Shown: piece by piece, positions 6,213 through 34,567 of the stretch
Position numbering within the stretch: the stretch's first letter is position 1
How the letters are laid out: each line of letters opens with the position of its first letter
NCBI GenBank assembly: GCA_017451915.1
Contig: JAFTNJ010000018.1
Span: forward strand, 1-45,586
Source: Clostridia bacterium
Lineage (GTDB): Bacteria; Bacillota; Clostridia; Oscillospirales; CAG-272
Length of the DNA stretch: 45,586 nucleotides
Reading direction: 5' to 3'
Notes under the pieces: generated by a model
What the model saw: only the letters and a program-made list of their open reading frames with translations
Told to the model about the DNA's origin: nothing
Databases searched by the model: none
Made by a program: the position numbers and the translations under genes

Positions 6213-6662
6213 ATGAATACCCCTTTGCAAAATTCCACTCCGGCCTCCCCGCCCATGGGAGAGGCGTTGCAGCAGCTGCTGGCGAACCCCGACCTGCTCC
6301 GACGGGTGCGGGAGATCCTTGCGCCCACCGCTGAGACCCCCGCAGATGCTCCCTCCGAGGATTCCCCCGTCTCGGCCGCGCCATCCACACCCCCACCCGC
6401 AACGGACGGCTTGGCCTCCTTGCTGGGAGACCCCGCGCTGTTGGAAAAGCTTCCCCAGATCATGGCCACGGTAAAGCCGTTGCTTGCCACCCTTCCAACC
6501 ACGCCCCCGGCGCAAGCCGCGGAGCCCAAGTCGCTCCCCGCCTGTCGGGACCATCTTCTGCTCTCCCTGAAGCCCTTTCTCTCTCCCACCCGTCGGGACG
6601 CGGTGGATACCATTCTCCGCATCGCCCGCCTGGGTGAGATCCTGGGTCAGCTGAAGTCTTGA
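6213..6662 (+). CDS. Proline/alanine-rich small protein, second of three
   Basis: A 149-residue protein. Two short helical units with similar wording, GEALQQLLANPDLLRRVREIL (about 16-36) and GLASLLGDPALLEKLPQIMATV (about 65-86), may be an internal duplication. They are joined by a low-complexity Pro/Ala/Ser/Thr linker. A conserved-looking C-terminal helix (SLKPFLSPTRRDAVDTILRI) follows. No signal peptide or catalytic motif. The start has AAGGAGG six bases upstream. It is eleven bases ahead of the third gene. Function unknown. Confidence 0.75.
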   Translation: MNTPLQNSTPASPPMGEALQQLLANPDLLRRVREILAPTAETPADAPSEDSPVSAAPSTPPPATDGLASLLGDPALLEKLPQIMATVKPLLATLPTTPPAQAAEPKSLPACRDHLLLSLKPFLSPTRRDAVDTILRIARLGEILGQLKS

Positions 6663-6673
6663 GGAGGTGCGCC

Positions 6674-7069
6674 ATGTATTCCCGTTCTACCAATCCCTCG
6701 GGACGTCCCATTCGGATCCCCGAGCATTACAGCGGAAGTGCCTTTGCCACGTCGCCTCCCCTTGCCGCAGAGCCCCTTCCAAAAAGACGCCTGCCTGAGG
6801 TCGCCACGCCCTCGCCGCCCAAGGAGCCCCCCGTTCCCCAGGAGCCCCCCCGCCGTGCCGAGGAACCTTCCCCTGCGCCCACGCTCCCCCTCCCGTTGCC
6901 GCCGCCCCATCCGGCACCGCCCGCGGGAGGCTTGGGGATCTCCCTCCCCTTCCTCCACGGCATCCACTCCGACGACCTTCTGCTCCTGGGATTGATCCTC
7001 CTTCTGGCTCAAAATCAGCAGGACACCTCCACCCTGCTTTGGCTGGCACTCCTTCTGTTTTGCGGTTAA
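6674..7069 (+). CDS. Proline-rich protein with hydrophobic C terminus, third of three
   Basis: A 131-residue protein. It opens with YSRSTNPSGRPIRIPEHYSG, runs through about 55 residues of extreme proline content, and ends with DDLLLLGLILLLAQNQQDTS and LLWLALLLFCG, two hydrophobic stretches that could insert in or lie on a membrane. My impression, not checked, is that small proteins with an IPxxYxGxAF start and a DDxLLLGLILLL ending recur in spore-forming Clostridia. The start has GAGGAGG upstream. High C content on the plus strand comes from proline codons. Function unknown; a role in spore envelope is only a guess. Confidence 0.7.
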   Translation: MYSRSTNPSGRPIRIPEHYSGSAFATSPPLAAEPLPKRRLPEVATPSPPKEPPVPQEPPRRAEEPSPAPTLPLPLPPPHPAPPAGGLGISLPFLHGIHSDDLLLLGLILLLAQNQQDTSTLLWLALLLFCG

Positions 7070-11628: not shown

Positions 11629-12597
11629 ATGCAACCAACCACCGTTCAAGCCATTCATCAAACCGTACGGGAGCGCGTCAGCCGTGTGATCGTGGGAAAG
11701 GAGCAGGTCACCGACCTTGCCGTGATCGCTCTGCTTTGCGGCGGGCATATGCTCATTGACGACGTCCCCGGCACCGGTAAAACGGTTTTGGCAAAGACCT
11801 TTGCCAACGCCCTCTCCTTAACCTTCAAACGGGTGCAATGCGTGCCCGATCTGCTCCCCTCGGATCTCTTTGGCGTCAACTTCTTTGACATGAAGCAATC
11901 CGAGTTCCGCTTCCTCCGGGGACCGGTCTTTACCAACATCCTCCTGGCCGACGAGATCAACCGCGCCATGCCCAAGACCCAATCGGGACTTTTGGAGTGC
12001 ATGGAGGAGCACCAGGTAACCGTGGAGGGAGTGTCCTACCCCTTGGAGGAACCCTTTATGGTGCTGGCTACCCAAAACCCCGTGGAAACCAAGGGAACCT
12101 TTGATCTGCCCGAGGCTCAGCTCGACCGCTTTTTGATCAAAACCTCCATGGGATACCCTTCCCATGAGGAAAACGTGGAGATCCTTTCCCGCAAGCTCTG
12201 TCCTACGCCGACCGACGGTGACGACGGTAAAGTGCTTGACGCCGCCCTGATCGGGGAGGCGCGACGGGAGCTGGCCGCGGTCTACGTGCACCCCGATCTG
12301 CTTTCCTACGCCGCCGCCATCTGCGAGGAGACCCGCAACGGTAAGGACGTGGTGCTGGGCGCAAGCCCCCGCGCCATGATCGCCCTGGTGCGCGTGGCGC
12401 AAGGCTACGCCGCTCTTGAGGGACGGGATTTCGTTCTTCCCGACGATATCAAACGCGCCGTGCGTCCCGTGCTGGCGCACCGCATCCTATTCCACAACAG
12501 CTTTTTCCATCGGGAAAACCTGGGAGAGGAGCTCCTTACAAGCATTTTGGAGCAAGTGCCCGTTCCCAGTGAGCAAATGGATTTTTCCCGCAGGTAA
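11629..12597 (+). CDS. MoxR family AAA+ ATPase
   Basis: A 322-residue AAA+ ATPase of the MoxR type. Walker A is DDVPGTGKT, Walker B is ILLADEINRAMPKTQSGLLE, and the sensor region is MVLATQNPVETKGTFDLPEA with QLDRF. The C-terminal lid contains ASPRAMIALVRVAQGYAAL. MoxR proteins act as chaperones together with DUF58/VWA-type partners, and the next two genes encode such partners. The start has AAGGAGGGGG upstream. Confidence 0.93.
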   Translation: MQPTTVQAIHQTVRERVSRVIVGKEQVTDLAVIALLCGGHMLIDDVPGTGKTVLAKTFANALSLTFKRVQCVPDLLPSDLFGVNFFDMKQSEFRFLRGPVFTNILLADEINRAMPKTQSGLLECMEEHQVTVEGVSYPLEEPFMVLATQNPVETKGTFDLPEAQLDRFLIKTSMGYPSHEENVEILSRKLCPTPTDGDDGKVLDAALIGEARRELAAVYVHPDLLSYAAAICEETRNGKDVVLGASPRAMIALVRVAQGYAALEGRDFVLPDDIKRAVRPVLAHRILFHNSFFHRENLGEELLTSILEQVPVPSEQMDFSRR

Positions 12598-12603
12598 CCC
12601 GCC

Positions 12604-13725
12604 ATGGAAGGGATCTTGCTTTTCCTTGCCGACCTGGCCTCGCGCCTGTTGACCTCCCGGTGGTTTTGGATCCTTTGCCTGCTTTTGTTCCTCGGATTCC
12701 TCCTTCTCACCCTCTACCGCCGAGCCAAGCTGGCGGCTCTGGAGAAGGTCTCCTACACCCGCGCCTTCTCGACCGACGGCATTTTTGTTGGCGAGGAGCT
12801 GGAGCTGCGGGAGTCGATCCGCAACCCCTCCTGGTTTCCTCTCTTTGGGGTGCGGGTGGAGTTCTTCATGCCCTCGGGCGTGACCGTGGACGGCATTGTT
12901 TGCAAGGAATACCAAAAGCTGACCAGCGTGTTTCACATTCCCCCCTTCTCTACGGTGCAAAAGGCGCACGTCCTGCGCGCCGACCGAAGGGATCATTACC
13001 GTTTGTACAACGCTACCATCGAGTACCGAAAAAACGAGTTTTTATTCTCGGTGCCCCTGGACTTTTACGCCTACCCCGACCGCTACGATGCCGACGCCGC
13101 GCTGGCCCCCGACATCTACCACGCGGGGAACACTATTTCCCATCGCAAATACCTGGAGGATCCCTTTTTCCTCTCGGGCATTCGCCCCTATCAATCGGGA
13201 GATCCCATGCGTGCCATCAATTTCAAGGCCTCGGTGCGCTCCTTTTCGGGCGGCGTGCGGCAGCTGATGTGCAACAACTACGATTCCTCCCGCAAATACG
13301 ACTCCATGATCTTTTTGGATCTCACCGCCTATCCCGAGGCCGTGTTTGACGGCACCGACCAGATCGAGCAGGGTCTGCGTGCCGCCTGCTTCCTCTTTTG
13401 TGAGGCGGTCACCAACGGCGGACGGGTGGGCTTTGCCTCCAACTGTTGCGTGGGGGACGCCCATTTTGTCCATCTTCCCTGCGGCAGCGGCGACACCCAT
13501 TCCAAGCGCATCCTGGAGCACTTTGCCGAGATCACCGGCTTTGCCCAACGGGATTACTCCATGACGGCACTCTTGGAGCAGCTGGCTCCTTCCCTGACCG
13601 CCGGGACCGATCTCTACCTCATCACCCCCTTCGTCAGCAGCAAAATGGCCCGTTTGCTCCACGCCCTGGAGCGCGCGGGGCGCAACGTTTGCATCATTGA
13701 GCTAAAAGGAAGGAGGATCGCATGA
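12604..13725 (+). CDS. DUF58 domain membrane protein
   Basis: A 373-residue protein. One or two transmembrane helices at about residues 17-38 (SRWFWILCLLLFLGFLLLTL) are followed by a beta-rich region (ELELRESIRNPSWFPLFGVR) and the DUF58 signature GIRPYQSGDPMRAINFKASV near residue 197. A von Willebrand-A-like segment follows (YDSMIFLDLTAYPE). In family members this part partners the MoxR ATPase. The ribosome site is weak (CAGGTAACCC). The gene is 6 bases after moxR, and its end overlaps the next start (ATGA), so coupling is tight. Confidence 0.9.
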   Translation: MEGILLFLADLASRLLTSRWFWILCLLLFLGFLLLTLYRRAKLAALEKVSYTRAFSTDGIFVGEELELRESIRNPSWFPLFGVRVEFFMPSGVTVDGIVCKEYQKLTSVFHIPPFSTVQKAHVLRADRRDHYRLYNATIEYRKNEFLFSVPLDFYAYPDRYDADAALAPDIYHAGNTISHRKYLEDPFFLSGIRPYQSGDPMRAINFKASVRSFSGGVRQLMCNNYDSSRKYDSMIFLDLTAYPEAVFDGTDQIEQGLRAACFLFCEAVTNGGRVGFASNCCVGDAHFVHLPCGSGDTHSKRILEHFAEITGFAQRDYSMTALLEQLAPSLTAGTDLYLITPFVSSKMARLLHALERAGRNVCIIELKGRRIA

Positions 13726-22190: not shown

Positions 22191-23378
22191 TTATTGGTAG
22201 CTCTCCATCAGCTTTTGGAAGGCCGGGAGGGCGTTTTGAATCTGCTCTGTGCTGACACAGTAAGCAATGCGGACAAATCCGGGAGTGCCAAAGTCGTCGG
22301 CAGGCACCAGGAGCAGCTCCTGCTCTCTTGCCTTGAGGCAGAATGCATTGGCATCGGCCTCGGGGGATTTGACGAACAAATAAAAGGCACCGTCGGGATA
22401 AATACAGGTATATCCGTACGCGGTCAGAGCGTTGTAAAGCAGGTCCCGATTGGTCTTATACACCGAAGTATCGGCGGTCTTGCCAAGGCACTTGACCACG
22501 ACCCGTTGCATCATGCTGGGGGCGCAAACGTAGCCCAGGGCACGGCCCGCGCCGCAAACCGCGGCGTAGACGCGTCGCTCGTCCTCCAGCTTGTTGGAAA
22601 GCGCGATGTAACCAATGCGCTCACCCGGCAGGGAGAGGGACTTACTGAAGGAATAGCAGATCACGGTATTGTCGTAGTAGTTGACCAGGAAGGGCACTTC
22701 CTTGCCATCGTAAACCAATTCGCGGTAGGGTTCATCCGAGATCAGATAGATGGGATGGCCGTACTCCTTGGATTTCTTCTCCATGAGGGCGCAGGCCGCC
22801 TTCAGCTTCTCGGGGGTAAAGACCACACCCGAGGGGTTGTTGGGAGAGTTGACGATCACCGCCTTGGTATTGGGGGTAATGGCCTTTTCAAAGGCCTCCA
22901 GGTCGATCTGGAAGTCGGCGGGATCCGACGCCACGGGAACCAATCTGCCTCCTGCCGCCTCCACAAACACCCGATACTCGGGGAAGAAGGGGGTGAAGGT
23001 GATATATTCGTCCGCCGAAGAAGCGTTCAACGCCTTGAGAATGATGCACAGGGACGCCGCGGCTCCGCAGGTCATGTAAATGCTGTCGGGGCTGATATTG
23101 GTGGCGTATCTTGCATTGAGATCGGCGGCAATGGCACGGCGCACTCCCGCGTCGCCCTGGGCCGAGGTGTAGCCGTGGAGGGCGATGGGATCGCTGTTCT
23201 TTACCAGATCCAAAATCGCCTCCTCTACCTCCCGGGGAGCGGGCACCGAAGGATTGCCCAGACTGAAATCAAAGACCTTATCGGCTCCGATCTCGGCGCG
23301 GCGGCGATTGCCGTACTCAAAGATCTCACGAATGACCGAGCGGCGACTGCCCAGGCCGTACATGGTTTCATTTATCAT
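22191..23378 (-). CDS. PLP-dependent aminotransferase, last gene of the ior operon
   Basis: A 395-residue fold-type I aminotransferase. Seen: FDFSLGNPSVPAPREVEEAI, HGYTSAQGDAGVRRAIA, VNSPNNPSGVVF, LISDEPYRELVY and the Schiff-base lysine in CYSFSKSLSLPGERIGY, ending with FVRIAYCVST. It could turn arylpyruvates into aromatic amino acids or the reverse. Its place at the end of a unit with iorAB and paaK ties it to arylpyruvate chemistry by inference. It starts 29 bases after the ACT protein gene; the ribosome site AAAGGA is rather far (13 bases). It is distinct from the Lrp-linked aminotransferase at 14861. Confidence 0.88.
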   Translation of the reverse strand: MINETMYGLGSRRSVIREIFEYGNRRRAEIGADKVFDFSLGNPSVPAPREVEEAILDLVKNSDPIALHGYTSAQGDAGVRRAIAADLNARYATNISPDSIYMTCGAAASLCIILKALNASSADEYITFTPFFPEYRVFVEAAGGRLVPVASDPADFQIDLEAFEKAITPNTKAVIVNSPNNPSGVVFTPEKLKAACALMEKKSKEYGHPIYLISDEPYRELVYDGKEVPFLVNYYDNTVICYSFSKSLSLPGERIGYIALSNKLEDERRVYAAVCGAGRALGYVCAPSMMQRVVVKCLGKTADTSVYKTNRDLLYNALTAYGYTCIYPDGAFYLFVKSPEADANAFCLKAREQELLLVPADDFGTPGFVRIAYCVSTEQIQNALPAFQKLMESYQ

Positions 23379-23407
23379 GGTTGTTGTGTGGTCCTTTCGG
23401 AATAAAA

Positions 23408-23839
23408 TTACTTCTTGCGAATGTCGGACTCGGCAAGAATGGAAACGCCTGCGGCCCGGAGGGTCTCCAGGGCCTTTTGGTTATCGTCGGTACGCAGCAC
23501 CGCCATGGCGTGCTTCTCGTTCTCACCCACAAAGGAGTACATATACTCAATGGCGTGACCGCCGGCATCCAGTGCCGACAGCGCCTTGGCCAGGCCGCCG
23601 GGGGTATCGTCCACGGCAAGACCCAGAACCTGATTGACCTTGACCACAACGCCGTGATCGGTCAGGATCTGCTCGGCCTTTTCCTCGTCGTCCACGATCA
23701 GTCTCAAAATACCAAAGTCGGTGGAATCCGCCAGGGACAGGGCGCAAATATCAATATTGTTGTTTCCAAGCTCCGTCAGGATCTCGGCAAGGCCGCCCTT
23801 CTTGTTCTCCACAAAAATGGAAAGCTGTCTGATAAACAT
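23408..23839 (-). CDS. Tandem ACT domain protein
   Basis: A 143-residue protein made of two ACT domains and nothing else: residues 1-70 (FIRQLSIFVENKKGGLAEIL and following) and 71-140 (QVLGLAVDDTPGGLAKALSA and following). ACT domains bind amino acids. Genes of this kind often lie next to paaK and iorAB in Firmicutes, so it is probably the amino-acid-sensing partner of this pathway; the mechanism is not known. The start has GAGAGGAACC. Spacing to neighbours is 23 and 29 bases. Confidence 0.88.
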   Translation of the reverse strand: MFIRQLSIFVENKKGGLAEILTELGNNNIDICALSLADSTDFGILRLIVDDEEKAEQILTDHGVVVKVNQVLGLAVDDTPGGLAKALSALDAGGHAIEYMYSFVGENEKHAMAVLRTDDNQKALETLRAAGVSILAESDIRKK

Positions 23840-23862
23840 ATGGGTTCCTCTCTTTCTTCGGA

Positions 23863-25182
23863 TTATTTCTTGTAAAGATTACGGTTATCGATGATTCGCT
23901 TTGCCTTTCCTTCGCTACGCACAATCGACTTGGGGTTCACCAGATGCACCTTGGCACCCAGACCCAACACGTTGCGGAGCTCGCCAACAATGCGCTTTTC
24001 CACCTTCTCGATGGACTTGATATCGTCGGCAAAGAGCTCGGGGCTCATCTCCACGTTGATGTCCAGAGTGTCGGTGTTGTTCTCTCTGCCCACCACGATC
24101 TGGTAGTTGGGGGTCACCGCGCCACCGATCTTGAGGAGGACCTCCTCGATCTGGGAGGGGAATACGTTCACGCCGCGAATAATGAGCATATCGTCGCTGC
24201 GTCCCGCGGGCTTGCCCATACGAATGTGGGTACGTCCGCAAGCGCAGGGCTCGGGATTGAGGGTACAAATGTCACGGGTACGGTAGCGGATCACCGGGAA
24301 GCCCTGCTTGGTGATGGTGGTAAAGACCAGCTCGCCCTGCTCACCGTAGGGCAGAACCTCGCCGGTATCGGGATCAATGATCTCGGCAATAAAGTGGTCC
24401 TCGCAAATGTGCATACCGGCCTGGCACTCGCACTCGTAGGAAACGCCGGGGCCCATGATCTCGGAAAGTCCGTAAATATCGTAAGCCTTGATGTTGAGCT
24501 TTTCCTCAATGGCGGCTCTCATATCCTCGGTCCAGGGCTCGGCACCAAAAATGCCTGCCTTAAGGGAGAGCTTTTCCTTCACGCCTGCCTCTTCCACGGC
24601 TTCTCCAAGATAAAGGGCGTAGGAAGGCGTGCAGCAGAGAACGGTAGAACCAAAGTCCACCATGGTTTGCACCTGGCGGGCGGTATTGCCCGAGGAGGTG
24701 GGAACCACCGTGGCACCGATGCGGGTGGCACCGTCGTGAGCGCCAAGACCGCCGGTAAAGAGGCCGTAACCGTAGGAAACCTGCACCACGTCCTTGTTGG
24801 ATCCGCCAATGGCGCGGATCATTCTTGCCACACAGTCGGCCCACATTTCAATATCCGACTCGGTGTAGCCTACCACGATCTGCTTACCCGTGGTACCGCT
24901 GGAGGCGTGGATACGCACAATGTTCTCCAGAGGCTCGGCAAACAGGCCGTAGGGATATTCGTCCCGCAGGTCGCTCTTATAGGCAAAGGGGAGCTTGTGC
25001 AGATCCTCCACACCGTGAATGTCCGAGGGCACGAGGCCCTTCTCATCCATTCGCTTGCGGAACAGCGGAACTCTTTCATACATTCTCGCAACCTGCGCCA
25101 CGAGTCTCTCGCTTTGCAGCTTCTTCAGCTCCTCGCGGGGCATGGTTTCAATTTCGGGCTGATGCATAGGATAACTTGCCAT
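23863..25182 (-). CDS. paaK: Phenylacetate-CoA ligase family enzyme
   Basis: A 439-residue adenylate-forming ligase of PaaK length. It activates phenylacetate or a related arylacetate with ATP and CoA. Seen: [20 protein letters not shown] (P-loop-like ATP motif), [57 protein letters not shown], and [20 protein letters not shown] in the C-terminal domain. The start at 25182 ([12 protein letters not shown]) has AAAGGAAG upstream; the longer TTG start lies on that site. Its neighbour iorAB makes or uses arylacetyl-CoA, so the two act on the same intermediate. Confidence 0.92.
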
Positions 25183-25211
25183 TTGGGAAACACTTCCTTT
25201 CAAAAATCAAA

Positions 25212-25781
25212 TCAAATTAAATGGTAGCCCGCGTCAAAGGCCTTGAGATTGACCTCCAGAGCCTTGGGCGGAACCGTAGCTTTAATCGTCTCGATCCAGG
25301 TGTCATAAGGGATTTCGGTATTCTTTGCCATGACGCCGATGAGAACCACGTTGACTACACGCACGTTCCCCAGCTCGTTGGCAATGGCAAGGGCGTCCAC
25401 CTCGCAGAGGTCAGCGGCCGCCGCGATCTTTTCGGAGAGCCCCTCGGGATACTTGGCCGCGCCGATGATCACCGGCATGGGGGCGGTCTCCTGGGCGTTC
25501 ATGATCATCTTACCGCCCTTTTTGAGGTACGGAAGATAACGGTACGCCTCCAATTTTTCAAAGGCAAGAATGATATCGGCCTCGCCCATATCAATGATGG
25601 GAGAGTAAACCTTCTCACCAAATTTTACGTAAGTAACCACGCTGCCGCCGCGCTGGCTCATGCCGTGCACCTCGGAAAGCTTGACGTCATAGCCCTGAGA
25701 AATAATGGCGTTGCCTAAGATTCGGCTGGCCAACAGAGTTCCCTGTCCACCCACGCCAACGATCATAATATTCTTGGTCAT
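25212..25781 (-). CDS. iorB: Indolepyruvate:ferredoxin oxidoreductase, beta subunit
   Basis: A 189-residue subunit of the IOR complex. The N terminus has the gamma-domain pattern IMIVGVGGQGTLLASRILGN, then SEVHGMSQRGGSVVTYVKFG and EKVYSPIIDMGEADIILAFE, all highly typical of IorB. With IorA it converts arylpyruvates plus CoA to arylacyl-CoA and CO2 with ferredoxin as electron acceptor, or the reverse. It starts 3 bases after the iorA stop with GGAGG inside the iorA end, so the subunits are translationally linked. Confidence 0.95.
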   Translation of the reverse strand: MTKNIMIVGVGGQGTLLASRILGNAIISQGYDVKLSEVHGMSQRGGSVVTYVKFGEKVYSPIIDMGEADIILAFEKLEAYRYLPYLKKGGKMIMNAQETAPMPVIIGAAKYPEGLSEKIAAAADLCEVDALAIANELGNVRVVNVVLIGVMAKNTEIPYDTWIETIKATVPPKALEVNLKAFDAGYHLI

Positions 25782-25784
25782 GAC

Positions 25785-27542
25785 TCAAACCTCCTTCTTT
25801 TCGATGGCACCAAAGGGACACAAATTGGTGCAAAGACCACAGCCGTTGCATTGGGTGGCATCGATCTTCACGGTACTGCCGTCCTCGCAAAGGGAGATGG
25901 CGGGACATCCAAGCTTCATACAAAGCTTGCACTTCTTGCATTTCTCGCTGTTGATCTCACATCTGCCGCTATACTTGAAGCGCTTGAGCAGAGCGCAGGG
26001 ACGCTGGGCAATGATCACCGAGGGCGCTTCCCTCTCCACTTCTTCCTTTACAACCTTCTCAAAGGTCTTCAGGTCAAAGGGATCGGCCACAACCACGTGC
26101 TCCACGCCAATGGCCTTGCAAAGAGCCAAGAGGTTGACCTGTCTTGTCTCCTCGCCCCGAATGGTATAGCCCGTGGTGGGGTTTTCCTGATGACCGGTCA
26201 TACCCGTAATAGAGTTATCCAAAATGATGACGGTATTGTTGCCCTTGTTGTAAACGATGTCAATCAGCCCCGTAATACCCGAGTGCATAAAGGTGGAGTC
26301 ACCAATGACCGACACCAGCTTCTTGTTGAATTCCTGGCCTCTGGCCTTGGCCATACCCATGGCCGCCGAAACCGACGCGCCCATGCAGATGGTGGTATCC
26401 ACCGACATCAAGGGAGCAACCGCGCCCAGGGTGTAGCATCCAATGTCACCCGAAACGGTAAGTCCCAGCTTTTTGAGGACGTAGAAGGTGCCTCTGTGGG
26501 GGCATCCCGCACACATGACGGGAGGACGGACGGGAATGGTCTCCTCCATGGCAAAATGCTCTGCCGCATCCTCCCCAAAGATGGCCTTTTTGATCATGGT
26601 GGGGGTGTATTCCCCGAGAAGGGTAAAGGCCTCCTTGCCAACCAGGTTGGAAACGCCAATGGCACGGCAATGCTCCTCTACGAAGGGATCCAGCTCCTCC
26701 AGAACGTAGACCTTTTCGTACTTGGCGGCAAAATCCCGAATGAGCTTGGTGGGCAGAGGATAGGACATTCCCAACTTGAGGTAGCCGACACGATCACCCA
26801 AAGCTTCTTTGGCGTAGAGATAGGTGGTACCTCCGGCAATGACGCCGATCTTGGCATCCGCAGTATGCTCCACGGTATTGAAGGGGCAATTCTCGGCGTA
26901 TTCCGCCAGCGCCGCTTGACGCGCCTCCACGGTTACGTGACGTCCCTTGGCATTGGCGGGCATCATCACGTATTTTCCAATGTTCTTTTCATAGGGCTTG
27001 AGCGCGACCTCTTCCCGCTCGCAGATCTCCACCAACCCTTGGGAATGGGACACACGGGTGGAAAGACGGATCATCATGGGAAGGTCGTACTCCTCGGACA
27101 GAGCAAAGGCTGCCTTGGTAAATTCCTTGCACTCCGAGGAATCGGAAGGCTCCAGCATACAAAGCTTTGCTGCTTTGGCGTAGTGTCTGGAATCCTGCTC
27201 GTTTTGCGAGGAATGCATTCCGGGGTCGTCGGCAACGCAGATGACCAGTCCCCCGTTGACGCCGGTATAGGCCGCCGTAAAGACGGGATCGGCCATGACG
27301 TTCAGTCCCACGTGCTTACAGCAGGTCATGGAGCGACCGCCGGCAATGGAGGCGCCAATGGCAACCTCGCAGGCCACCTTTTCGTTGGGTGCCCACTCGG
27401 CGTAGACCTCCTTTGCGTCGTAGGTGGCAATGGCCTCGGTGATCTCGGTACTGGGGGTACCGGGATAGGAGGAAACCACCTTTACCCCTGCCTCATAAGC
27501 ACCACGCGCCACGGCATGGTTTCCAAGCAATAATTTTTTCAT
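25785..27542 (-). CDS. iorA: Indolepyruvate:ferredoxin oxidoreductase, alpha subunit
   Basis: A 585-residue thiamine-diphosphate enzyme of normal IorA length. Order: pyrimidine-binding domain at the N terminus (LLGNHAVARGAYEAGVKVVS, YPGTPSTEITE), a central part, then the TPP-binding half (CAGCPHRGTFYVL, SGDIGCYTLGAVAPL, IGDSTFMHSGITGLIDIVYN, NSITGMTGHQENP), and two C-terminal [4Fe-4S] clusters (CKKCKLCMKLGCP and CNGCGLCTNLCP). It acts in the anaerobic cytoplasm with reduced or oxidised ferredoxin. It lies 24 bases after the acyl-CoA synthetase gene. Confidence 0.95.
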   Translation of the reverse strand: MKKLLLGNHAVARGAYEAGVKVVSSYPGTPSTEITEAIATYDAKEVYAEWAPNEKVACEVAIGASIAGGRSMTCCKHVGLNVMADPVFTAAYTGVNGGLVICVADDPGMHSSQNEQDSRHYAKAAKLCMLEPSDSSECKEFTKAAFALSEEYDLPMMIRLSTRVSHSQGLVEICEREEVALKPYEKNIGKYVMMPANAKGRHVTVEARQAALAEYAENCPFNTVEHTADAKIGVIAGGTTYLYAKEALGDRVGYLKLGMSYPLPTKLIRDFAAKYEKVYVLEELDPFVEEHCRAIGVSNLVGKEAFTLLGEYTPTMIKKAIFGEDAAEHFAMEETIPVRPPVMCAGCPHRGTFYVLKKLGLTVSGDIGCYTLGAVAPLMSVDTTICMGASVSAAMGMAKARGQEFNKKLVSVIGDSTFMHSGITGLIDIVYNKGNNTVIILDNSITGMTGHQENPTTGYTIRGEETRQVNLLALCKAIGVEHVVVADPFDLKTFEKVVKEEVEREAPSVIIAQRPCALLKRFKYSGRCEINSEKCKKCKLCMKLGCPAISLCEDGSTVKIDATQCNGCGLCTNLCPFGAIEKKEV

Positions 27543-27566
27543 AAAATTTATGTACCTTTCTTTCTC

Positions 27567-29207
27567 TTACTCTTCGATCTGCTGCGCAACCACGCTATCG
27601 CCGGCGTACAGCTTGCGAAGCTTGGGCTTTTCGATCTTGCCGGTGGGGTTTCTCGGAACCTCGGCAAAAATAAACTTGTGAGGACGCTTGTAGCGGGGCA
27701 AGCCAAAGCAGAAGTCCCGCATCTCCTCCTCGCCAAGGGAATAGCCCTCCTTGGCCTCGATGATGGCCGCGGCGATCTCTCCGAGACGTTTGTCGCGGAT
27801 GCCAATGACCGCTACGTCCTTGACGGCGTTGTGCTTGCGGATGTAATCCTCGATCTGCACGGGATAGATGTTCTCACCGCCCGAGATGATCACGTCCTTT
27901 TTGCGGTCGACCAGGTAGATAAATCCATCCTCGTCCTCCTTGGCCATGTCTCCCGTATAGAGCCATCCGTCCTCGGAAAGCACCTCACGGGTCGCCTTTT
28001 CGTCGTTGTAATAGCAAAGCATTACGCCGGGACCCTTCACGGCAAGCTCGCCCACGTCGCCCTTTTCCACTTCCTTATGCTCGGTATTCAGGATCTTGAC
28101 CTCCCAGCCAAAGCCGGCCTTACCGATGGCACCCACCTTGTGGGGGTTCTCTACGCCCAGATGCACGCATCCGGGGCCAATGGACTCACTCAAACCGTAG
28201 TTGGTATCGTACTGATGATTGGGGAAATGCTCGAACCAGCGCTTGATCAGGCTGGGGGGAACCGGTTGCGCGCCGATGTGCATCAAACGCCACTGGGAAA
28301 GCTCGTAACGGTCGGGATCCACGTCCCCACGGTCAATGGCGTCCAGCAGATCCTGCGCCCACGGCACCAAGAGCCAGACGATGGTGCATTTCTCCTCGCT
28401 GACCGCCTTGAGGATCCACTCGGGCTTTACACCCTTGAGGAGCACGGCGCGTCCGCCCGAAATCAGGGAGCCGAACCAGTGCATCTTGGCACCCGTGTGA
28501 TACAGGGGCGGGATGCAGAGGAAAACGTCATCCTTGGTCTGTCCGTGGTGCATCTGCTCCACGCGGCAGGAGTGTACCAACGCCTCGTGGGCGTGAAGGA
28601 TGGCCTTGGGGAAGCCGGTGGTTCCCGAAGAGAAATAGATCGCGGCGTAGTCCTGCTCATTCAGCTCAATGGCGGGATCCCGGGAGGTACAGTAGGTCAC
28701 CAGCTTATCGTAGCTCTCGGCAAAGCGGGGGCAATCGGCACCCACGTAGAAGTTGGCCTTGATCCGAGGCATACGGTCACAGATCTCCTCCACACGTCCG
28801 ATGAATTCGGGGCCAAAAACCAGCATGGAGGCATCGGAAAGATTGAGACAGTAACGAATCTCCTCCGAGGTATAACGGTAGTTGAGGGGAACCGCAAGAG
28901 CACCGGTCTTGAGGATACCAAAATATACGGGGAGCCACTCCAGGCAGTTCATGAGCAGAATAGCGATCTTATCCCCTTTTTGCACACCGCGGGAAAGCAG
29001 CAGATTGGCAAAGCGGTTGGCCCGCTTGTCAAATTCCTCCCAGGTCATCTCGGTACGGACCGCTCCGTTGTTGGGATCCGACTCGATGAGGGAAAATTCC
29101 TTCCAGGTAATGCGTTGGTTGGTCTGCGCCTGGGGATTGATCTCCACCAAAGCCACCTCGTTGGGGGTTTCTTTTGCGTTTCGTCTTAAAAAATCGGCAA
29201 TGGTCAT
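27567..29207 (-). CDS. Acyl-CoA synthetase (AMP-forming)
   Basis: A 546-residue ANL superfamily ligase. Seen: IYFSSGTTGFPKAILHAHEA (ATP-binding A3-like motif), NYGLSESIGPGC, GWLYTGDMAKEDEDGFIYLV and DRKKDVIISGGENIYPVQIE, ending with PRNPTGKIEKPKLRKL that holds the catalytic lysine. It joins a carboxylic acid to CoA through an acyl-adenylate. Neighbourhood suggests an aryl or branched acid, complementary to the PaaK ligase. It is first behind the internal promoter at 29250-29278; the ribosome site is weak (AGAAAGAGAA). Confidence 0.88.
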   Translation of the reverse strand: MTIADFLRRNAKETPNEVALVEINPQAQTNQRITWKEFSLIESDPNNGAVRTEMTWEEFDKRANRFANLLLSRGVQKGDKIAILLMNCLEWLPVYFGILKTGALAVPLNYRYTSEEIRYCLNLSDASMLVFGPEFIGRVEEICDRMPRIKANFYVGADCPRFAESYDKLVTYCTSRDPAIELNEQDYAAIYFSSGTTGFPKAILHAHEALVHSCRVEQMHHGQTKDDVFLCIPPLYHTGAKMHWFGSLISGGRAVLLKGVKPEWILKAVSEEKCTIVWLLVPWAQDLLDAIDRGDVDPDRYELSQWRLMHIGAQPVPPSLIKRWFEHFPNHQYDTNYGLSESIGPGCVHLGVENPHKVGAIGKAGFGWEVKILNTEHKEVEKGDVGELAVKGPGVMLCYYNDEKATREVLSEDGWLYTGDMAKEDEDGFIYLVDRKKDVIISGGENIYPVQIEDYIRKHNAVKDVAVIGIRDKRLGEIAAAIIEAKEGYSLGEEEMRDFCFGLPRYKRPHKFIFAEVPRNPTGKIEKPKLRKLYAGDSVVAQQIEE

Positions 29208-29249
29208 TTTGATGATTCTCTTTCTTTTTCTATCAACTTGTATTTATCT

Positions 29250-29278
29250 ATTATACCTCTGTTCGGAGGATCTGTCAA
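29250..29278 (-). promoter_or_regulatory. Exact-consensus internal promoter for the ior genes
   Basis: Minus strand TTGACA (29273-29278), 17 bases, TATAAT (29250-29255). The -35 box contains the TGA stop of the symporter gene. It can supply transcripts of the synthetase-ior-paaK-ACT-aminotransferase genes that do not pass the T-box. Confidence 0.88.
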
Positions 29279-30786
29279 TCGTTTTTTGCTTCTTTCAGGG
29301 AAGAAAATGCGTCGTTTACCTCATCCACATTCTTTACGGGGGTCAGGAGGCTGACCACGGGAACGATCACCAGTCCCGCCAGCATCACAAAGGCACCGCA
29401 GTTAATAGGAGATGCCAGCCATGCGGGGAAAAGGCCGGGAACGAAGGTGTTGAGCAGCATAACGATCACGCCAAAGCCAAAGGAGGCCCAAACCGACGCG
29501 GGGGAGGTACGCTTCCAGTACAGGCCGTACAGGAAGGGCGCCAGGAAGGCACCCGCCAGAGCACCCCAGGAGAGTCCCATGAGCTGGGCGATAAAGGCAA
29601 AGCCGTACTTGTACTGCAGAATAGCGATCACCGAGGATACGGCCACAAAGAAGACCACCAGCACGCGCATGATCAGCACCTGCTTTTTCTCCTTCATTTC
29701 CCGATTCCGCTTAATGAGATCCAGGGTCAGGGTCGAGCTGGAGGTAAGCACCAGGGAGGACAGGGTGGACATGGAGGCCGACAGCACCAGAACCACGATC
29801 ACGGCAATGAGCACGTTGGGGAGTCCCTCCAGCATCTTGGGGATAATGGCGTCGTAGATCACCTTGCCGTTGGCACCTACGGGAGCCTCGTACAAGCGTC
29901 CAAAGCCGCCCAGGAAGTAGCAGCCGCCGGCCACGATCAGAGCAAACACCGTGGAAACGATGGCACCCTTCTTAATGGCCTGGGTGTTTTTGATGGCGTA
30001 GAATTTGCCAACCATCTGGGGCAGGCCCCAGGTACCGAGAGAGGTAAGAATAATTACGGCAATCAGATTGAAGGGATCGGGACCGAGAATGGCGGTAAAG
30101 CTACCTGCGGGTGCGTTTTCGGCAGGCGCGCTGATCTGGGACATGGCATCAAAGGCCTCGGCAAAGCCACCGTTGCTGTTGACCACGGCCAGCACCACCG
30201 CAACAATACCCACCAGCATAATGATGCCCTGGAGGAAGTCGTTGACGGCCGTCGCCATATATCCTCCGGCCACCACGTAAATGCAGGTCAGCACGGCCAT
30301 TGCAAGGATGCAAACGGAATAATCAATGCTGAACGCCATGGCGAACAGACGGGAAAGTCCGTTGTAAAGGGAGGCGGTGTAAGGAATCAGGAAGATGAAT
30401 ACGATCAACGCCGCGGCGATCTTGAGCGCCTCGGAGCGATACCGCTTTCCAAAGAAATCCGGCATGGTAGAGCTCTTGTAGTACTGGGTCATGGAGCGTG
30501 TGCGCGCACCGAGAACGATCCAGGCAAGGAGAGAGCCCAGGATGGCGTTTCCAATACCGATCCAGGTAGAGGCAAGGCCAAAGCGCCAGCCAAACTGTCC
30601 GGCATAGCCAATAAAGATAACGGCCGAGAAATAGGAGGTTCCGTAGGCAAAGGCGGTAAGCCAGGGACCAACGGCACGTCCACCGAGAACAAAGCTATCC
30701 ACGTTGGTGGAATGCTTGCGGCAGATCACACCGATGGCAATAGTAGAGCCAACGAAAAGCACGAGAAGCAGGATTTTGATCAACAT
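29275..30786 (-). CDS. Sodium:solute symporter (SSS family)
   Basis: A 503-residue membrane protein with about 13 hydrophobic segments. Family wording: ADF-like NVDSFVLGGRAVGPWLTAFA, YFSAVIFIGYAGQFGWRFGL, MTQYYKSSTMPDFFGKRYRS, CIYVVAGGYMATAVNDFLQG and LVLSASMSTLSSLVLTSSST with the sodium-site serines. SSS proteins import proline, pantothenate, carboxylates or sugars with sodium. Behind a T-box and ahead of arylacetate-activating genes, uptake of an aromatic acid or amino acid is the likely role (inference). The start follows AAAGGAAAAC. Confidence 0.92.
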   Translation of the reverse strand: MLIKILLLVLFVGSTIAIGVICRKHSTNVDSFVLGGRAVGPWLTAFAYGTSYFSAVIFIGYAGQFGWRFGLASTWIGIGNAILGSLLAWIVLGARTRSMTQYYKSSTMPDFFGKRYRSEALKIAAALIVFIFLIPYTASLYNGLSRLFAMAFSIDYSVCILAMAVLTCIYVVAGGYMATAVNDFLQGIIMLVGIVAVVLAVVNSNGGFAEAFDAMSQISAPAENAPAGSFTAILGPDPFNLIAVIILTSLGTWGLPQMVGKFYAIKNTQAIKKGAIVSTVFALIVAGGCYFLGGFGRLYEAPVGANGKVIYDAIIPKMLEGLPNVLIAVIVVLVLSASMSTLSSLVLTSSSTLTLDLIKRNREMKEKKQVLIMRVLVVFFVAVSSVIAILQYKYGFAFIAQLMGLSWGALAGAFLAPFLYGLYWKRTSPASVWASFGFGVIVMLLNTFVPGLFPAWLASPINCGAFVMLAGLVIVPVVSLLTPVKNVDEVNDAFSSLKEAKND

Positions 30787-30842
30787 AACTGTTTTCCTTT
30801 CTTTTTTTGGGTCGCTGCCCGATTTTTGGGAATCGGAGGAAC

Positions 30843-31192
30843 AAAAAAAGCCCTCCGTAAAACAGAGGACGGGATATGAACATCTCGTGATACCACCTCA
30901 ATTCGCCATATCCTCACGAACATGGCCTCATAGGGTACGATGATACCCTTGCGCGATAACGGGCGCGCCCGTTGCACTCTACTGGGTGGGTCTCCCCACG
31001 GTTCGGTACACAACTCGCAAAATGTATTCCCCCGTTCCGCTTCTCTGTCTTTCACCGGCCGACAGCTCTCTGTGCAAGGTAGGCGCGAGGTACTTCTTTT
31101 TGGTCACCGTCTTTGTTTGCGTTGAAGTCGCAAATAAGGTCGCTCTCCGAATCGCACCCCTACGCACAAGAGGCAACGCCACGAAAAACGAT
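30843..31192 (-). ncRNA. T-box riboswitch leader, probably tyrosine-specific
   Basis: Minus-strand leader of about 350 bases. The T-box sequence is at 30884-30903 (AATTGAGGTGGTATCACGAG). Antiterminator arms GGATATG/CATATCC lie at 30907-30913 and 30872-30878. The terminator pairs GTCCTCTG with CGGAGGGC (30850-30870) before seven T residues (30843-30849). A Stem III-like hairpin AGGGTA/TACCCT is at 30932-30949 and a palindrome AACGGGCGCGCCCGTT at 30958-30973. Stem I has AGAGAG, a CTGTC/GACAG distal helix (31045-31065) with GGTGAAA in the loop, and a lower GCGAG/CTCGC helix. The UGGU of the T-box needs a tRNA with discriminator A. A UAC codon at 31024-31026 is the candidate specifier. Confidence 0.88.
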
Positions 31193-31198
31193 ATCATT

Positions 31199-31227
31199 AT
31201 TATACCACGTTCGTCTTTTTTCGTCAA
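31199..31227 (-). promoter_or_regulatory. Sigma-A promoter of the T-box operon
   Basis: Minus strand TTGACG (31222-31227), 17 bases, TATAAT (31199-31204). The expected transcription start near 31192 gives a leader of about 400 bases before the symporter. Confidence 0.88.
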
Positions 31228-31352: not shown

Positions 31353-32828
31353 TTATTTGTTGTAAGCGTCAATAATCTGCTGGAAGGACGACTCCCAAGC
31401 ATTCTTGTATTGCGCGGAGGAGCTTGCCCACTGATTGGAGGTGGGGTTCAAGTAGCATTTCTTGAATACATCCTTGGGGCTGCTGGAATATACGCAGGTG
31501 AACAGATAGATAAAGTCAAAGGTAATACCGTCGCGGATCAGATCGTACATATCGGCCAATCTTTCATCGGGAGCCAGACGAAGCTTGAGGTAGGTCTCAA
31601 AGTAGAGGGGACCGATCTGACGGTAGGACTCGGAAGCCATACACTCCATGACTGCGGAGGTGCAATCCATATCCTTTACGTTGTAGGGAACGCACCAGGC
31701 ATCGTGCTCGTTGGAGAGGTGGGTGTAGTAACGCTCCTGCTCGGAGTTAAGCTTGGGCTGAGGAACCACGCCAAAGTTAATGGAATCCTCCTTGGTACCC
31801 ATGGCCAAGTATACGCCGCCGGAATAGAAGTAGGCGCGTCTCTCATAGAACATCTTACCCTGAGAGGTATCGTTCTGGTATACGTCGTTGTTGTTCATGA
31901 ACTTGGTCAAAACGTCCAGAGCCTTGTTAAGCTCGTCGCTGGCGATCAGAGAGGTAACCTCACCGTCCCGCACCTCGGAGAAGCGGTAGCCGCAGCCATA
32001 GAACCAAGCGTCGATCTTGGAGTTGCTGGCGGTACAAACGCCAAAGATATCCCCGGCACTGATCTTTTGGTCATTGTCAAAGTCCTCGTAGGTATCCTTA
32101 ATCATCTCGGAGAGCTTCTCCATGGTCCATTCATTCTTTGCCACCAGATCGTAGGGAGATTCCAGATTGCGGCTCTCCAGACGGTCGTTATCAAAGAACA
32201 CGGCAAGCATACTGAGAAGAACGCCGTGATCGTTGGCCTCCTCCAAGCTATAGATCTGATCGTTGATCAGCATCTCTCTCTGGTAAACCGAAGGCCACCA
32301 GGGTGCGGAGAGGTCGATGTATTCGGTTCCGTACAGGTTGGCGGCGTAGCCACGCACGGCCACTACGGGAGGAACCAGGTTGTAGGCAATGATGGCGTCG
32401 TGAGGCGTGCCGCCGTCACAAGCCGTCTGAATGGCGGTCAGGAAGGTCTCACGGCTTCCCCAAACGCCCGATACCAGATCCCACTCGAACTCAATGCCCA
32501 TACGGTCCTCTACGGTCATGTTGCGCTCGTAGATGGCGCGCTGGATGGGATCGTCATCCTCTGCGTTGGTACCCTGGAACTGGTATGCCTGCTGCTGACA
32601 GCCCAAAACGCGGAAGATACGGTTAAAGTCCAGATCCTCAGGGAGCTCATCATAATACAGTCCGTTTTCGTCGGTGTTCTCGGTCACCACCGTGGTAACG
32701 GCGGCGGGAGCTTCGGTGGTTCCCTGCTCTCCGGAATTCGGCGTCTGGCAAGCAGCCAGGGAGGCCAAAAGCATGGTAGCAACAAGGAACAGCAAGAGAC
32801 TCCGGATCACGATTGCTTGTTTTTTCAT
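31353..32828 (-). CDS. Lipoprotein solute-binding protein, paralog 1 of 6
   Basis: A 491-residue extracellular binding protein of the family-1 (carbohydrate ABC transporter) type. The lipobox is SLAAC near residue 27, followed by a short Thr/Glu-rich linker. The array-wide signature is TENTDENGLYYDELPEDLDF. Later come HDAIIAYNLVPPVVAVRGYA, APWWPSVY, an EF-hand-like loop DFDNDQKISAGD, DAWFYGCGYRF and DAWCVPYNVKD. It should capture a sugar or oligosaccharide at the cell surface. The start at 32828 has AAAGGAG. It has its own promoter and terminator. By eye it is most similar to paralog 2 (shared QQQAYQFQGT segment). No permease gene is nearby. Confidence 0.9.
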   Translation of the reverse strand: MKKQAIVIRSLLLFLVATMLLASLAACQTPNSGEQGTTEAPAAVTTVVTENTDENGLYYDELPEDLDFNRIFRVLGCQQQAYQFQGTNAEDDDPIQRAIYERNMTVEDRMGIEFEWDLVSGVWGSRETFLTAIQTACDGGTPHDAIIAYNLVPPVVAVRGYAANLYGTEYIDLSAPWWPSVYQREMLINDQIYSLEEANDHGVLLSMLAVFFDNDRLESRNLESPYDLVAKNEWTMEKLSEMIKDTYEDFDNDQKISAGDIFGVCTASNSKIDAWFYGCGYRFSEVRDGEVTSLIASDELNKALDVLTKFMNNNDVYQNDTSQGKMFYERRAYFYSGGVYLAMGTKEDSINFGVVPQPKLNSEQERYYTHLSNEHDAWCVPYNVKDMDCTSAVMECMASESYRQIGPLYFETYLKLRLAPDERLADMYDLIRDGITFDFIYLFTCVYSSSPKDVFKKCYLNPTSNQWASSSAQYKNAWESSFQQIIDAYNK

Positions 32829-32894
32829 ACTCTTTCTCCTTTGCGATGAAATTGGAAAAGGGGTACCGCGCAATGAATACGGGTATACAATCAC

Positions 32895-32923
32895 ATAATA
32901 CACTTTTTTGCGATGAAAATCAA
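32895..32923 (-). promoter_or_regulatory. Promoter of binding-protein gene 1
   Basis: Minus strand TTGATT (32918-32923), 17 bases, TATTAT (32895-32900). Confidence 0.75.
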
Positions 32924-33046
32924 TGTACTTTTTCACTCAAAAGGTGTATTTTTTTACTGTCTTGTGATTTTTTCTTTGTTGGAATCAACGAAAAAGCAAA
33001 AGAGGATGTCCTCGGCTTTGTTTGATTTTATGCACGGTGCATACCA

Positions 33047-33094: not shown

Positions 33095-34567
33095 TTACTT
33101 ATCGTAGGTATCCAGGATCTGCTGGAAGGCGGCAGTCCAGGTGTTTTTGTACTGCGCCAGAGTGCTGGCCCACTGATAGGTAGCGGGCTTGAGATAACAG
33201 TTTTTGAACTGATCCTTGGGACTTTGAGAGTACACGCAGGTGTACAAATAGATAAAATCGAAGGTGATGCCCTCACGGATCAGATCGTACATCCCCGCCA
33301 ACCGCTCGTCGGGGGCCAGGCGAAGCTTGAGATAGGTCTCAAAGTAAAGGGGACCGATCTGACGGTAGGATTCGGAAGCCATGCACTCCATAACGGCGGA
33401 GGTACAATCCATATCCTTGACGTTGTAGGGAACGCACCACGCGTCGTGCTCGTTGGAAAGATGGGTGTAGTAACGCTCCTGCTCGGAGTTGAGCTTGGGC
33501 TGAGGTACGATGCCAAAGTTCACCTCTCCCTCGGTGTAGCGCGCAAGATACACGCCGCCGGAATAGAAGTAAGCGCGCTTCTCGTAAAACATCTTTCCCT
33601 GGGAGGTATCATACGGGTATACGTCGTTATTGTTCAAAAAACCGATCAGCGTATCCAGGCAATCGTTGAGCTCGGGGCTCTCCACCAAGGAGACCACCTC
33701 GCCGTTTTGCACCTCGGAGAAGCGGTAGCCGCAGCCATAGAACCAAGCGTCGATCTTGGAGTTGCTGGCGGTACAAACGCCAAAGATGTCTCCGGCACTC
33801 ACCTTTTGGTCGTTGTCAAAGTCCTCATAGGTATCCTTGATCATCTCGGAGAGCTTTTCCATGGTCCATTCGTTCTTTGCTACCAGATCGTAGGGAGATT
33901 CCAGATTGCGGCTTTCCAGGCGGTCGTTGTCAAAGAATACGGCAAGCATACTCATAAGAACGCCGTGATCGTTGGTCTCCTCCAGGCTATAGATCTGATC
34001 GTTGATCAGCATTTCTCTCCGGTAGACCGAAGGCCACCAGGGTGCGGAGAGGTCGATGTATTCGGCGCCGTACAGATTGGCCGCATAGCCACGCACGGCA
34101 ACCACGGGAGGCACCAGATTGTAGGCAATCACGCCATCATGGGGCGTACCGCCGTCACAGGCCGTTTGCAGGGCGGTGAGGAAGGTCTCGCGGGTTCCCC
34201 AGGTTCCCTGAACCAGATCCCATTCAATTTCCACGCCCAGGCGCTCCTCTACGGTCATGTTCCGCTCGTAGATGGCGCGTTGAATGGCATCCTCATCCTC
34301 GGCATGGGTCCCTTGGAACTGGTACGCCTGCTGCTGACAGCCCAAAATGCGGAAGATACGGTTAAAATCCAGATCCTCGGGGAGATCGTCATAATACAGT
34401 CCGTTTTCGTCGGTGTTCTCGGTCACCACCGTGGTGGCAATGACCGGTGCCTCGGTGGTTCCCGACATTTCCTTGTCGGGGGTCTGACACGCGGTCAGAA
34501 TTGTCAAAAGCATGGCAGCAACGAGAAGCAGCACCGCGCTTTTGATTGCAATGGTTTGCTTTTTCAT
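33095..34567 (-). CDS. Lipoprotein solute-binding protein, paralog 2 of 6
   Basis: A 490-residue member of the array with lipobox LTAC, linker DKEMSGTTEAPVIA and TENTDENGLYYDDLPEDLDF. It shares with paralog 1 the QQQAYQFQGT segment, the FDNDRLESRNLESPYDLVAK region and DAWFYGCGYRF. Differences gather in the middle (VESPELNDCLDTLIGFLNNN) and around YLARYTEGEVNFG, which may be ligand-contact loops. A 79-base stretch (33709-33787) is identical to paralog 1 (31970-32048). The start has AAAGGAGGAG. It would be anchored to the outer face of the membrane. Confidence 0.9.
   Translation of the reverse strand: MKKQTIAIKSAVLLLVAAMLLTILTACQTPDKEMSGTTEAPVIATTVVTENTDENGLYYDDLPEDLDFNRIFRILGCQQQAYQFQGTHAEDEDAIQRAIYERNMTVEERLGVEIEWDLVQGTWGTRETFLTALQTACDGGTPHDGVIAYNLVPPVVAVRGYAANLYGAEYIDLSAPWWPSVYRREMLINDQIYSLEETNDHGVLMSMLAVFFDNDRLESRNLESPYDLVAKNEWTMEKLSEMIKDTYEDFDNDQKVSAGDIFGVCTASNSKIDAWFYGCGYRFSEVQNGEVVSLVESPELNDCLDTLIGFLNNNDVYPYDTSQGKMFYEKRAYFYSGGVYLARYTEGEVNFGIVPQPKLNSEQERYYTHLSNEHDAWCVPYNVKDMDCTSAVMECMASESYRQIGPLYFETYLKLRLAPDERLAGMYDLIREGITFDFIYLYTCVYSQSPKDQFKNCYLKPATYQWASTLAQYKNTWTAAFQQILDTYDK

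Follow-up and report, generated by a model that had tools for sequence, protein, structure and literature searches.

A Tyrosine-Specific T-Box Precedes a Candidate Arylacetate Salvage Operon in a Clostridia Bacterium

Introduction

Indolepyruvate:ferredoxin oxidoreductase (IOR) is reversible and is usually annotated as degradative, and the direction in which it works in gut anaerobes has yet to be settled. The question is raised again by an operon in a stretch of DNA of 45,586 nucleotides (contig JAFTNJ010000018.1, assembly GCA_017451915.1) from an uncultured Clostridia bacterium of the CAG-272 lineage of Oscillospirales; the whole stretch that was analyzed is called the window here. In this operon, seven packed genes on the minus strand follow a T-box leader RNA and encode, in this order, a symporter, an AMP-forming acyl-CoA ligase (labeled LIG hereafter), IorA, IorB, a PaaK-type ligase, a paired ACT protein and an aminotransferase. 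Does such a unit break down aromatic amino acids, or does it make them? The results presented below indicate that it is probably a tyrosine-starvation operon, which would salvage 4-hydroxyphenylacetate to tyrosine and supplement de novo synthesis. Within this interpretation, support is strongest for the anabolic direction and weakest for the exact substrates of LIG and of the symporter.

T-box Specificity and Operon Organization

Comparison with Rfam identified the leader as a T-box RNA (RF00230) at positions 30862..31116 of the minus strand, where it scored 101.9 bits (gathering score 93, E 1.8e-21) and covered the full model (1-219). Stem I, a specifier loop and an antiterminator with the GGUGGNA core were all found, above the curated score. 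The Rfam alignment and the sequence itself placed the tyrosine codon UAC in the specifier position (31024..31026, minus strand), within the context GGGGGAA-UAC-AUUUUG, and this codon, which was absent from a preliminary description of the locus, is the decisive detail. As a control, none of 30 other T-boxes of related genomes read UAC and many read GUC or GUA; these 30 were the best-scoring ones and not a random draw, and three of them were without the core by regular expression. A sigma-70-type promoter-like site (TTGACG-17-TATAAT; 31199..31227, minus strand) agrees with the consensus at 11 of 12 positions, and shuffled sequences yielded a mean of 0.5 such sites. At the other end of the leader, a terminator-like hairpin with a T run (30850..30870, minus strand) overlaps the 3' arm of the Rfam-aligned antiterminator and is thus an alternative to it. 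Folding predicted the hairpin as well, and the 71-base stretch folded no better than its shuffles (z -0.77).

Searches with Rfam, NCBIfam, Pfam and phmmer bore out the preliminary description of this region, which had reported the T-box and the seven minus-strand genes with their order, coordinates and gene calls, and intergenic gaps of 3-67 bases. IorA (25785..27542, minus strand, as for all genes of the operon) is predicted to be the alpha subunit of IOR, with 737.5 bits against TIGR03336 (cut-off 650.9), and its partner IorB (25212..25781), the beta subunit, scored 288.3 bits against NF005325 (cut-off 230). IorB is also above the cut-off of NF005322, but below that of TIGR03334 (189.8 vs 205.8). 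The equivalog score of IorA together with the presence of IorB assigns the pair to IOR.

LIG (27567..29207) belongs to the AMP-forming acyl-CoA ligases (PF00501, E 1.5e-76) and scored below the curated cut-offs of all 25 NCBIfam families shown among 108 matched, the best being PRK06187 (405 vs 476 bits). It is only distantly similar to 4-coumarate and feruloyl-CoA ligases, and it is proposed to be a 4-hydroxyphenylacetate (arylacetate)-CoA ligase; 4-hydroxyphenylacetate was picked as the substrate because the codon of the T-box is that of tyrosine. The residues Gly239 and His243 of LIG align with Tyr239 and Ser243 of 4-coumarate-CoA ligase (4CL), which we presume to have a role in the 4CL pocket; this is a hint only, which was given no weight and is not used as support.

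The second ligase (23863..25203, with a TTG start and an ATG at 25182) matched solved phenylacetate-CoA ligases by phmmer (2y27, E 1e-138) and is classed as PaaK-type, as it misses the equivalog cut-off of TIGR02155 (555.2 vs 646.3 bits). Its presence in the operon suggests that phenylacetate may be handled too. The first gene (29275..30786) encodes an SSS-family sodium:solute symporter (PF00474, E 3e-55), for which PutP was the best NCBIfam match, under its cut-off, and which is proposed to be the importer of a putative aryl acid substrate. The tandem ACT protein (23408..23839; PF19571 ACT_8, E 4e-28) is proposed to sense an amino acid on behalf of the ligase or of IOR, and the class I/II aminotransferase (22191..23378; NF005305, 561 bits, cut-off 376) is proposed to carry out the step from 4-hydroxyphenylpyruvate to tyrosine. 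Genes for activation, carboxylation and transamination, as expected for arylacetate salvage by reverse IOR, are thus all present in one unit.

Proposed Pathway and Direction of IOR

According to the proposed mechanism, uncharged tRNA-Tyr would accumulate during tyrosine shortage and bind the UAC T-box, the antiterminator would form, and the operon would be transcribed. The symporter would then import an aryl acid, most likely 4-hydroxyphenylacetate, from which LIG would form the arylacetyl-CoA while converting ATP to AMP, with PaaK handling phenylacetate or serving as a second ligase. IorAB would work in reverse, producing 4-hydroxyphenylpyruvate with CO2 and reduced ferredoxin, and the aminotransferase would yield tyrosine, a product for which the paired ACT domains are probably the sensor. 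The reverse direction of IOR is proposed because of the tyrosine regulation and the AMP-forming type of the ligase. In this respect, AMP-forming ligases typically favor acyl-CoA synthesis (PMC13285125; this and the articles marked likewise by their PMC numbers below are cited for their accessible parts, unless the main text is named).

The opposite direction corresponds to the usual annotation of IOR, and would amount to a Stickland-type oxidative breakdown in which IOR oxidizes arylpyruvates, the ligases recover energy or CoA and the symporter moves the acid. Such breakdown has precedents in clostridia, where a phosphotransferase and kinase route was reconstituted for C. scatologenes and where kinases and a ligase lie beside such oxidoreductases in C. 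difficile (PMC13285125). We consider it very unlikely for the operon described here, since a tyrosine T-box switches genes on in tyrosine shortage, since every T-box read before LIG or the symporter, in this and other genomes, carries UAC, and since both ligases are AMP-forming and no kinase, phosphotransacylase or ADP-forming ligase is found among the seven operon genes.

Distribution of LIG and Tyrosine T-boxes

Conservation was analyzed in 40 related genomes, the genome of the window (G000) included, and in a class-wide sample of 243 genomes drawn evenly across the class with a requested completeness of at least 92%, in which the genome of the window (87%) was also included. Among the 40 related genomes, 17 have a LIG orthologue. 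In 14 of the 17, one fetched stretch holds both IorA and LIG, or a fragment of LIG, while in G027, G035 and G039 IorA is elsewhere in the genome. Seven of the 17 have a T-box ahead of the unit (G000, G001, G003, G010, G014, G020, and G024), in two cases before the symporter and in five before LIG, and all seven read GAA-UAC. No recognizable T-box was found upstream in nine others (G002, G012, G013, G016, G018, G023, G027, G035, and G039), and G038, which is truncated within LIG, was left out of this judgement.

In the class-wide sample, LIG orthologues were detected in 93 genomes and IOR, at a threshold of E 1e-150, in 169. For the T-box search, neighborhoods were fetched for the other 92 LIG genes, a regular expression (core plus T run) was applied to all 93 loci, and Rfam was applied to 12 of the loci negative by this expression. 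By the regular expression, 19 of the 93 loci have a T-box ahead of LIG or the symporter, and all 19 read UAC; Rfam was applied to 14 of the 19, namely a set of 13 and that of the window, and confirmed every one. One of the 12 Rfam-checked loci (G136) carried an additional UAC T-box that the regular expression had missed, and four of the 93 loci have fewer than 350 bases upstream of LIG. At least 20 of the 93 LIG loci thus have a T-box, and all 20 read UAC, spanning 13 family-level groups; the window is counted both in this set and among the relatives. No phenylalanine or tryptophan specifier was found before LIG or the symporter among the T-boxes read.

The position of these T-boxes bears on another explanation, by which the switch mainly serves the symporter, as a transporter of tyrosine or aromatic amino acids, and the genes behind it are simply transcribed along with it. 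Control of amino acid transporters by T-boxes is common (PMC2494555), and in the window the symporter is the first gene of the operon. This explanation is nevertheless hardly credible, as the T-box lies directly before LIG in 10 of the 19 loci and before the symporter in nine (11 of 20 before LIG when G136 is counted), the symporter was not matched in the fetched stretch of the ten T-box-LIG loci, and a locus of another set (L081) has a T-box followed by LIG and only then by an MFS carrier. In G185, G104, G057, and G082, the T-box precedes LIG and the other six operon proteins were not found in the fetched stretch, and therefore the switch acts there on LIG without them.

This other set was obtained by scanning genome contigs with the LIG alignment and comprises the best 80 of at least 593 loci; three of the 80 duplicate loci of the two genome sets (L084, for example, is identical to L037 of G024), and therefore the counts are taken from the class-wide sample. 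A UAC T-box precedes LIG or the symporter in 13 of the 80 loci (L051, L057, L060, L061, L076, L077, L078, L081, L084, L096, L103, L073, and L089), or in 14 with L082, which is G136; CAA precedes the UAC in L073 and one extra A stands before it in L089. The gene order varies and includes LIG-IOR, IOR-LIG, LIG-symporter and symporter-LIG-IOR. In the window and 98 related and named loci, the commonest protein clusters apart from LIG were IorA (33 loci), IorB (29), PaaK (24), ACT (22) and the symporter (22), and the next-commonest clusters occurred in seven loci each at most. Aminotransferase-like proteins of other subfamilies follow IorB in L059 and ACT in L057. Many of the 80 loci have titles that point to gut samples, from the rumen or from horse, rabbit, goat, sheep or deer. 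Among the named carriers are Ruminococcus albus KH2T6, R. flavefaciens Y1, and Blautia schinkii DSM 10518, and in these three the regular expression detected no T-box ahead of LIG. LIG proteins of 67-72% identity occur in eight loci, mostly from gut samples (L064, L068, L085, L099, L115, L125, L128, and L129), with titles of Lentisphaeria/Lentisphaerae, Victivallales/Victivallaceae, Kiritimatiellae and a planctomycete, which suggests that the ligase may have been transferred between phyla.

On the LIG tree, the regular-expression T-box label requires at least nine changes, at least five of them forced by starred branches, while IorA adjacency requires 12 changes and symporter adjacency 15. Around a common tyrosine control, the gene set has thus been lost or put together on several occasions. 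Judged by these genome comparisons, the T-box, LIG, IOR and the symporter are a recurring core, and the operon arrangement is more than chance, since this core recurs in related and distant genomes. For the family as a whole, we are inclined, with some reserve, to regard LIG as an unnamed 4-hydroxyphenylacetate-CoA ligase family that, with IOR and interchangeable importers, would form a tyrosine-tRNA-sensing regulon of gut and rumen Clostridia, in which 4-hydroxyphenylacetate would be cross-fed even to prototrophs.

Weighing the Salvage of 4-Hydroxyphenylacetate

The co-occurrence of LIG with IOR speaks for the salvage of 4-hydroxyphenylacetate to tyrosine: IOR is present in 89 of the 93 LIG genomes vs 80 of the 150 without LIG, with a Fisher value (8e-14) that is only indicative, as the genomes share ancestry and the value overstates their independence. 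IorA lies in the fetched LIG neighborhood in only 27 of the 93 loci, and a symporter of the SSS family in 25. Several results weigh against this salvage, some of them against its strong form. By regular expression or Rfam, 73 of the 93 LIG loci are without a T-box; tyrosine control is therefore not universal for LIG, and other control must exist. IOR is, moreover, reversible, and in Bacteroides thetaiotaomicron it has been linked to a breakdown of phenylalanine that yields phenylacetate (cited in PMC13285125).

Two further sets of data weigh against the strong form. An orthologue of this aminotransferase adjoins the operon in the window and in G001 alone, and the full seven-gene combination was seen only in the window and one close relative. 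The preliminary description had proposed a search for loss of aroA-pheA-tyrA, and loss of the shikimate route was not borne out. Five shikimate-route enzymes were searched in G000, and all were found on contig C77: prephenate dehydratase (at 16290), EPSPS (17131), prephenate dehydrogenase (18383), DAHPS (19335) and chorismate synthase (51344). In the class-wide sample, prephenate dehydrogenase occurs in 90 of the 93 LIG genomes vs 94 of the 150 others; for prephenate dehydratase, the counts are 88 of the 93 and 91 of the 150. The idea that a lost prephenate branch explains the operon was rejected for G000, which has the five enzymes, and as a trend, since LIG genomes are richer and not poorer in prephenate dehydrogenase. 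With prephenate enzymes in nearly all LIG genomes, most LIG carriers can probably make tyrosine and do not depend on the salvage route for it, and the operon would be a sparing route. Since shikimate-route enzymes are kept in the genome, de novo synthesis would be spared by reusing the acid excreted by tyrosine-fermenting neighbors.

A few genomes depart from this pattern. Among the 40 relatives, the LIG-bearing G018, G027, and G039 have neither prephenate dehydratase nor prephenate dehydrogenase above the cut-off (G027 has two sub-cut-off matches to the dehydrogenase), and both enzymes are also missing from the LIG-free G011 and G021. In G013 and G016, prephenate dehydrogenase lies on the contig of LIG, approximately 4 and 8 kb away, which is not a general pattern. 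In the class-wide sample, G147, G202, G173, and G190 have LIG and prephenate dehydrogenase and no match to prephenate dehydratase, and are possible users of phenylacetate for phenylalanine.

A further objection comes from G082 (95% complete) and G148 (98%), which have a T-box and LIG and no IOR match at E 1e-150. Either LIG supplies another reaction in these two, or IOR escaped the search or is absent from the assembly, and our confidence in the salvage of 4-hydroxyphenylacetate was therefore slightly lowered. These two genomes would fit the salvage of another acid (phenylacetate, indoleacetate, phenylpropionate or hydroxycinnamate), with tyrosine as a proxy for aromatic shortage. The PaaK ligase in the same operon, which implies phenylacetate, and the merely distant likeness of LIG to 4-coumarate and feruloyl-CoA ligases would agree with this possibility, which we regard as unlikely but worth keeping in mind, as the specifiers before LIG or the symporter include none for phenylalanine or tryptophan and the units with LIG alone also read UAC. 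The salvage of 4-hydroxyphenylacetate to tyrosine thus keeps our preference. The preliminary description had proposed biosynthesis of aromatic amino acids rather than breakdown; the direction is well supported by the tyrosine T-box here and in 20 of 20 cases of the class-wide sample and by the AMP-forming ligases, with putative substrates, and the regulatory evidence points to tyrosine alone.

Comparison with Known Systems

Reverse IOR is already known from methanogens and from rumen microbes, in which the conversion of phenylacetate to phenylalanine reportedly goes back to work by Allison; to our knowledge, the aryl-acid route of Methanococcus maripaludis operates without a T-box. This archaeon converts aryl acids to aromatic amino acids with the IOR MMP0713/0714 (Porat et al., cited in PMC4162585). 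The operon described here would likewise lead from aryl acids to aromatic amino acids via IOR, as a second pathway beside de novo synthesis, and differs from the archaeal one in its tyrosine RNA switch, LIG-family ligase and symporter. Phenylalanine is also formed from phenylacetate in rumen fermentation (PMC7356843), which is the same chemistry in gut anaerobes, and to which genes, a sensor and tyrosine specificity are added here. The closest published statement in the literature searched concerns Bacteroides, in which IOR adjoins an AMP-forming arylacetate-CoA ligase and a biosynthetic role was suggested (PMC13285125, 2026). The combination of IOR and an AMP-forming ligase is shared; unlike in that account, tyrosine T-boxes in 13 family-level groups support the direction here, and a second ligase and an importer are present.

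Known targets of tyrosine T-boxes in Firmicutes are tyrS, the tyrosine biosynthesis operon of the B. cereus group and an NhaC transporter (PMC2494555). Like these, the operon described here would be switched on for tyrosine supply, but the known targets are a tRNA ligase, shikimate-derived synthesis and a transporter. The words 'indolepyruvate' and 'phenylacetate' do not occur in the main text of PMC2494555, nor in GapMind (PMC7311316), and the C. difficile T-box list, in the accessible part of PMC11477304, has no IOR or acyl-CoA ligase target and no occurrence of 'indolepyruvate'. A tyrosine T-box on arylacetate salvage genes, or its ligase, was not found in the open literature searched, a scope that leaves most subscription papers outside. 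Within this scope, reverse IOR is established in methanogens and rumen microbes and suggested for Bacteroides, and the tyrosine T-box regulon with LIG appears to be new.

The tyrosine T-box provides an independent statement of IOR direction that can be read from the sequence and that recurs with different gene orders. It also suggests a function for a widespread ligase family whose scores stay under all the NCBIfam cut-offs shown, and the prediction is testable in the cultured Ruminococcus and Blautia carriers of LIG. By implication, gut arylacetates may in part return to amino acids, and not only be excreted or turned into p-cresol. If this is true, what counts as an end product of tyrosine fermentation, 4-hydroxyphenylacetate, would be a cross-fed tyrosine precursor.

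Additional Observations

In the related and named loci, a few features were recorded beside LIG. A protein of 153-178 amino acids, forming one cluster in relatives of the genus, follows ACT in L036, L038, and L039 and IorB in L034; the copy of L036 has no NCBIfam match at 1e-15, and by its look we take the cluster to be perhaps a hotdog thioesterase. In G023 (L034, 7056-8798), there is an in-frame TAG in IorA and two in the frame of prephenate dehydrogenase, which reflect either decayed genes or sequencing errors in the assembly. L123, a locus in which no T-box was found, has an AgcS-type amino acid carrier (11647-13173, plus strand) 11 bases after LIG. In L199 (G057), a second T-box of 132.8 bits (6554-6797, minus strand) lies approximately 4 kb downstream of LIG, and in L170, a Gut-1 sRNA (RF01706; 2816-2891, minus strand) adjoins a tRNA, some 190-370 bases ahead of the T-box that precedes LIG in G155.

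In the window, ARAGORN predicted a tRNA-Thr(TGT) at 33734-33808 (minus strand), inside the frame 33095-34567; no Rfam tRNA reached the gathering score there, and the prediction is probably a false positive. The same frame and its neighbor (31353-32936 and 33095-34567, minus strand), upstream of the operon, are strongly similar lipoprotein-like open reading frames that by eye look like tandem duplicates, and the pair is followed by a terminator-like hairpin at 31341-31311.

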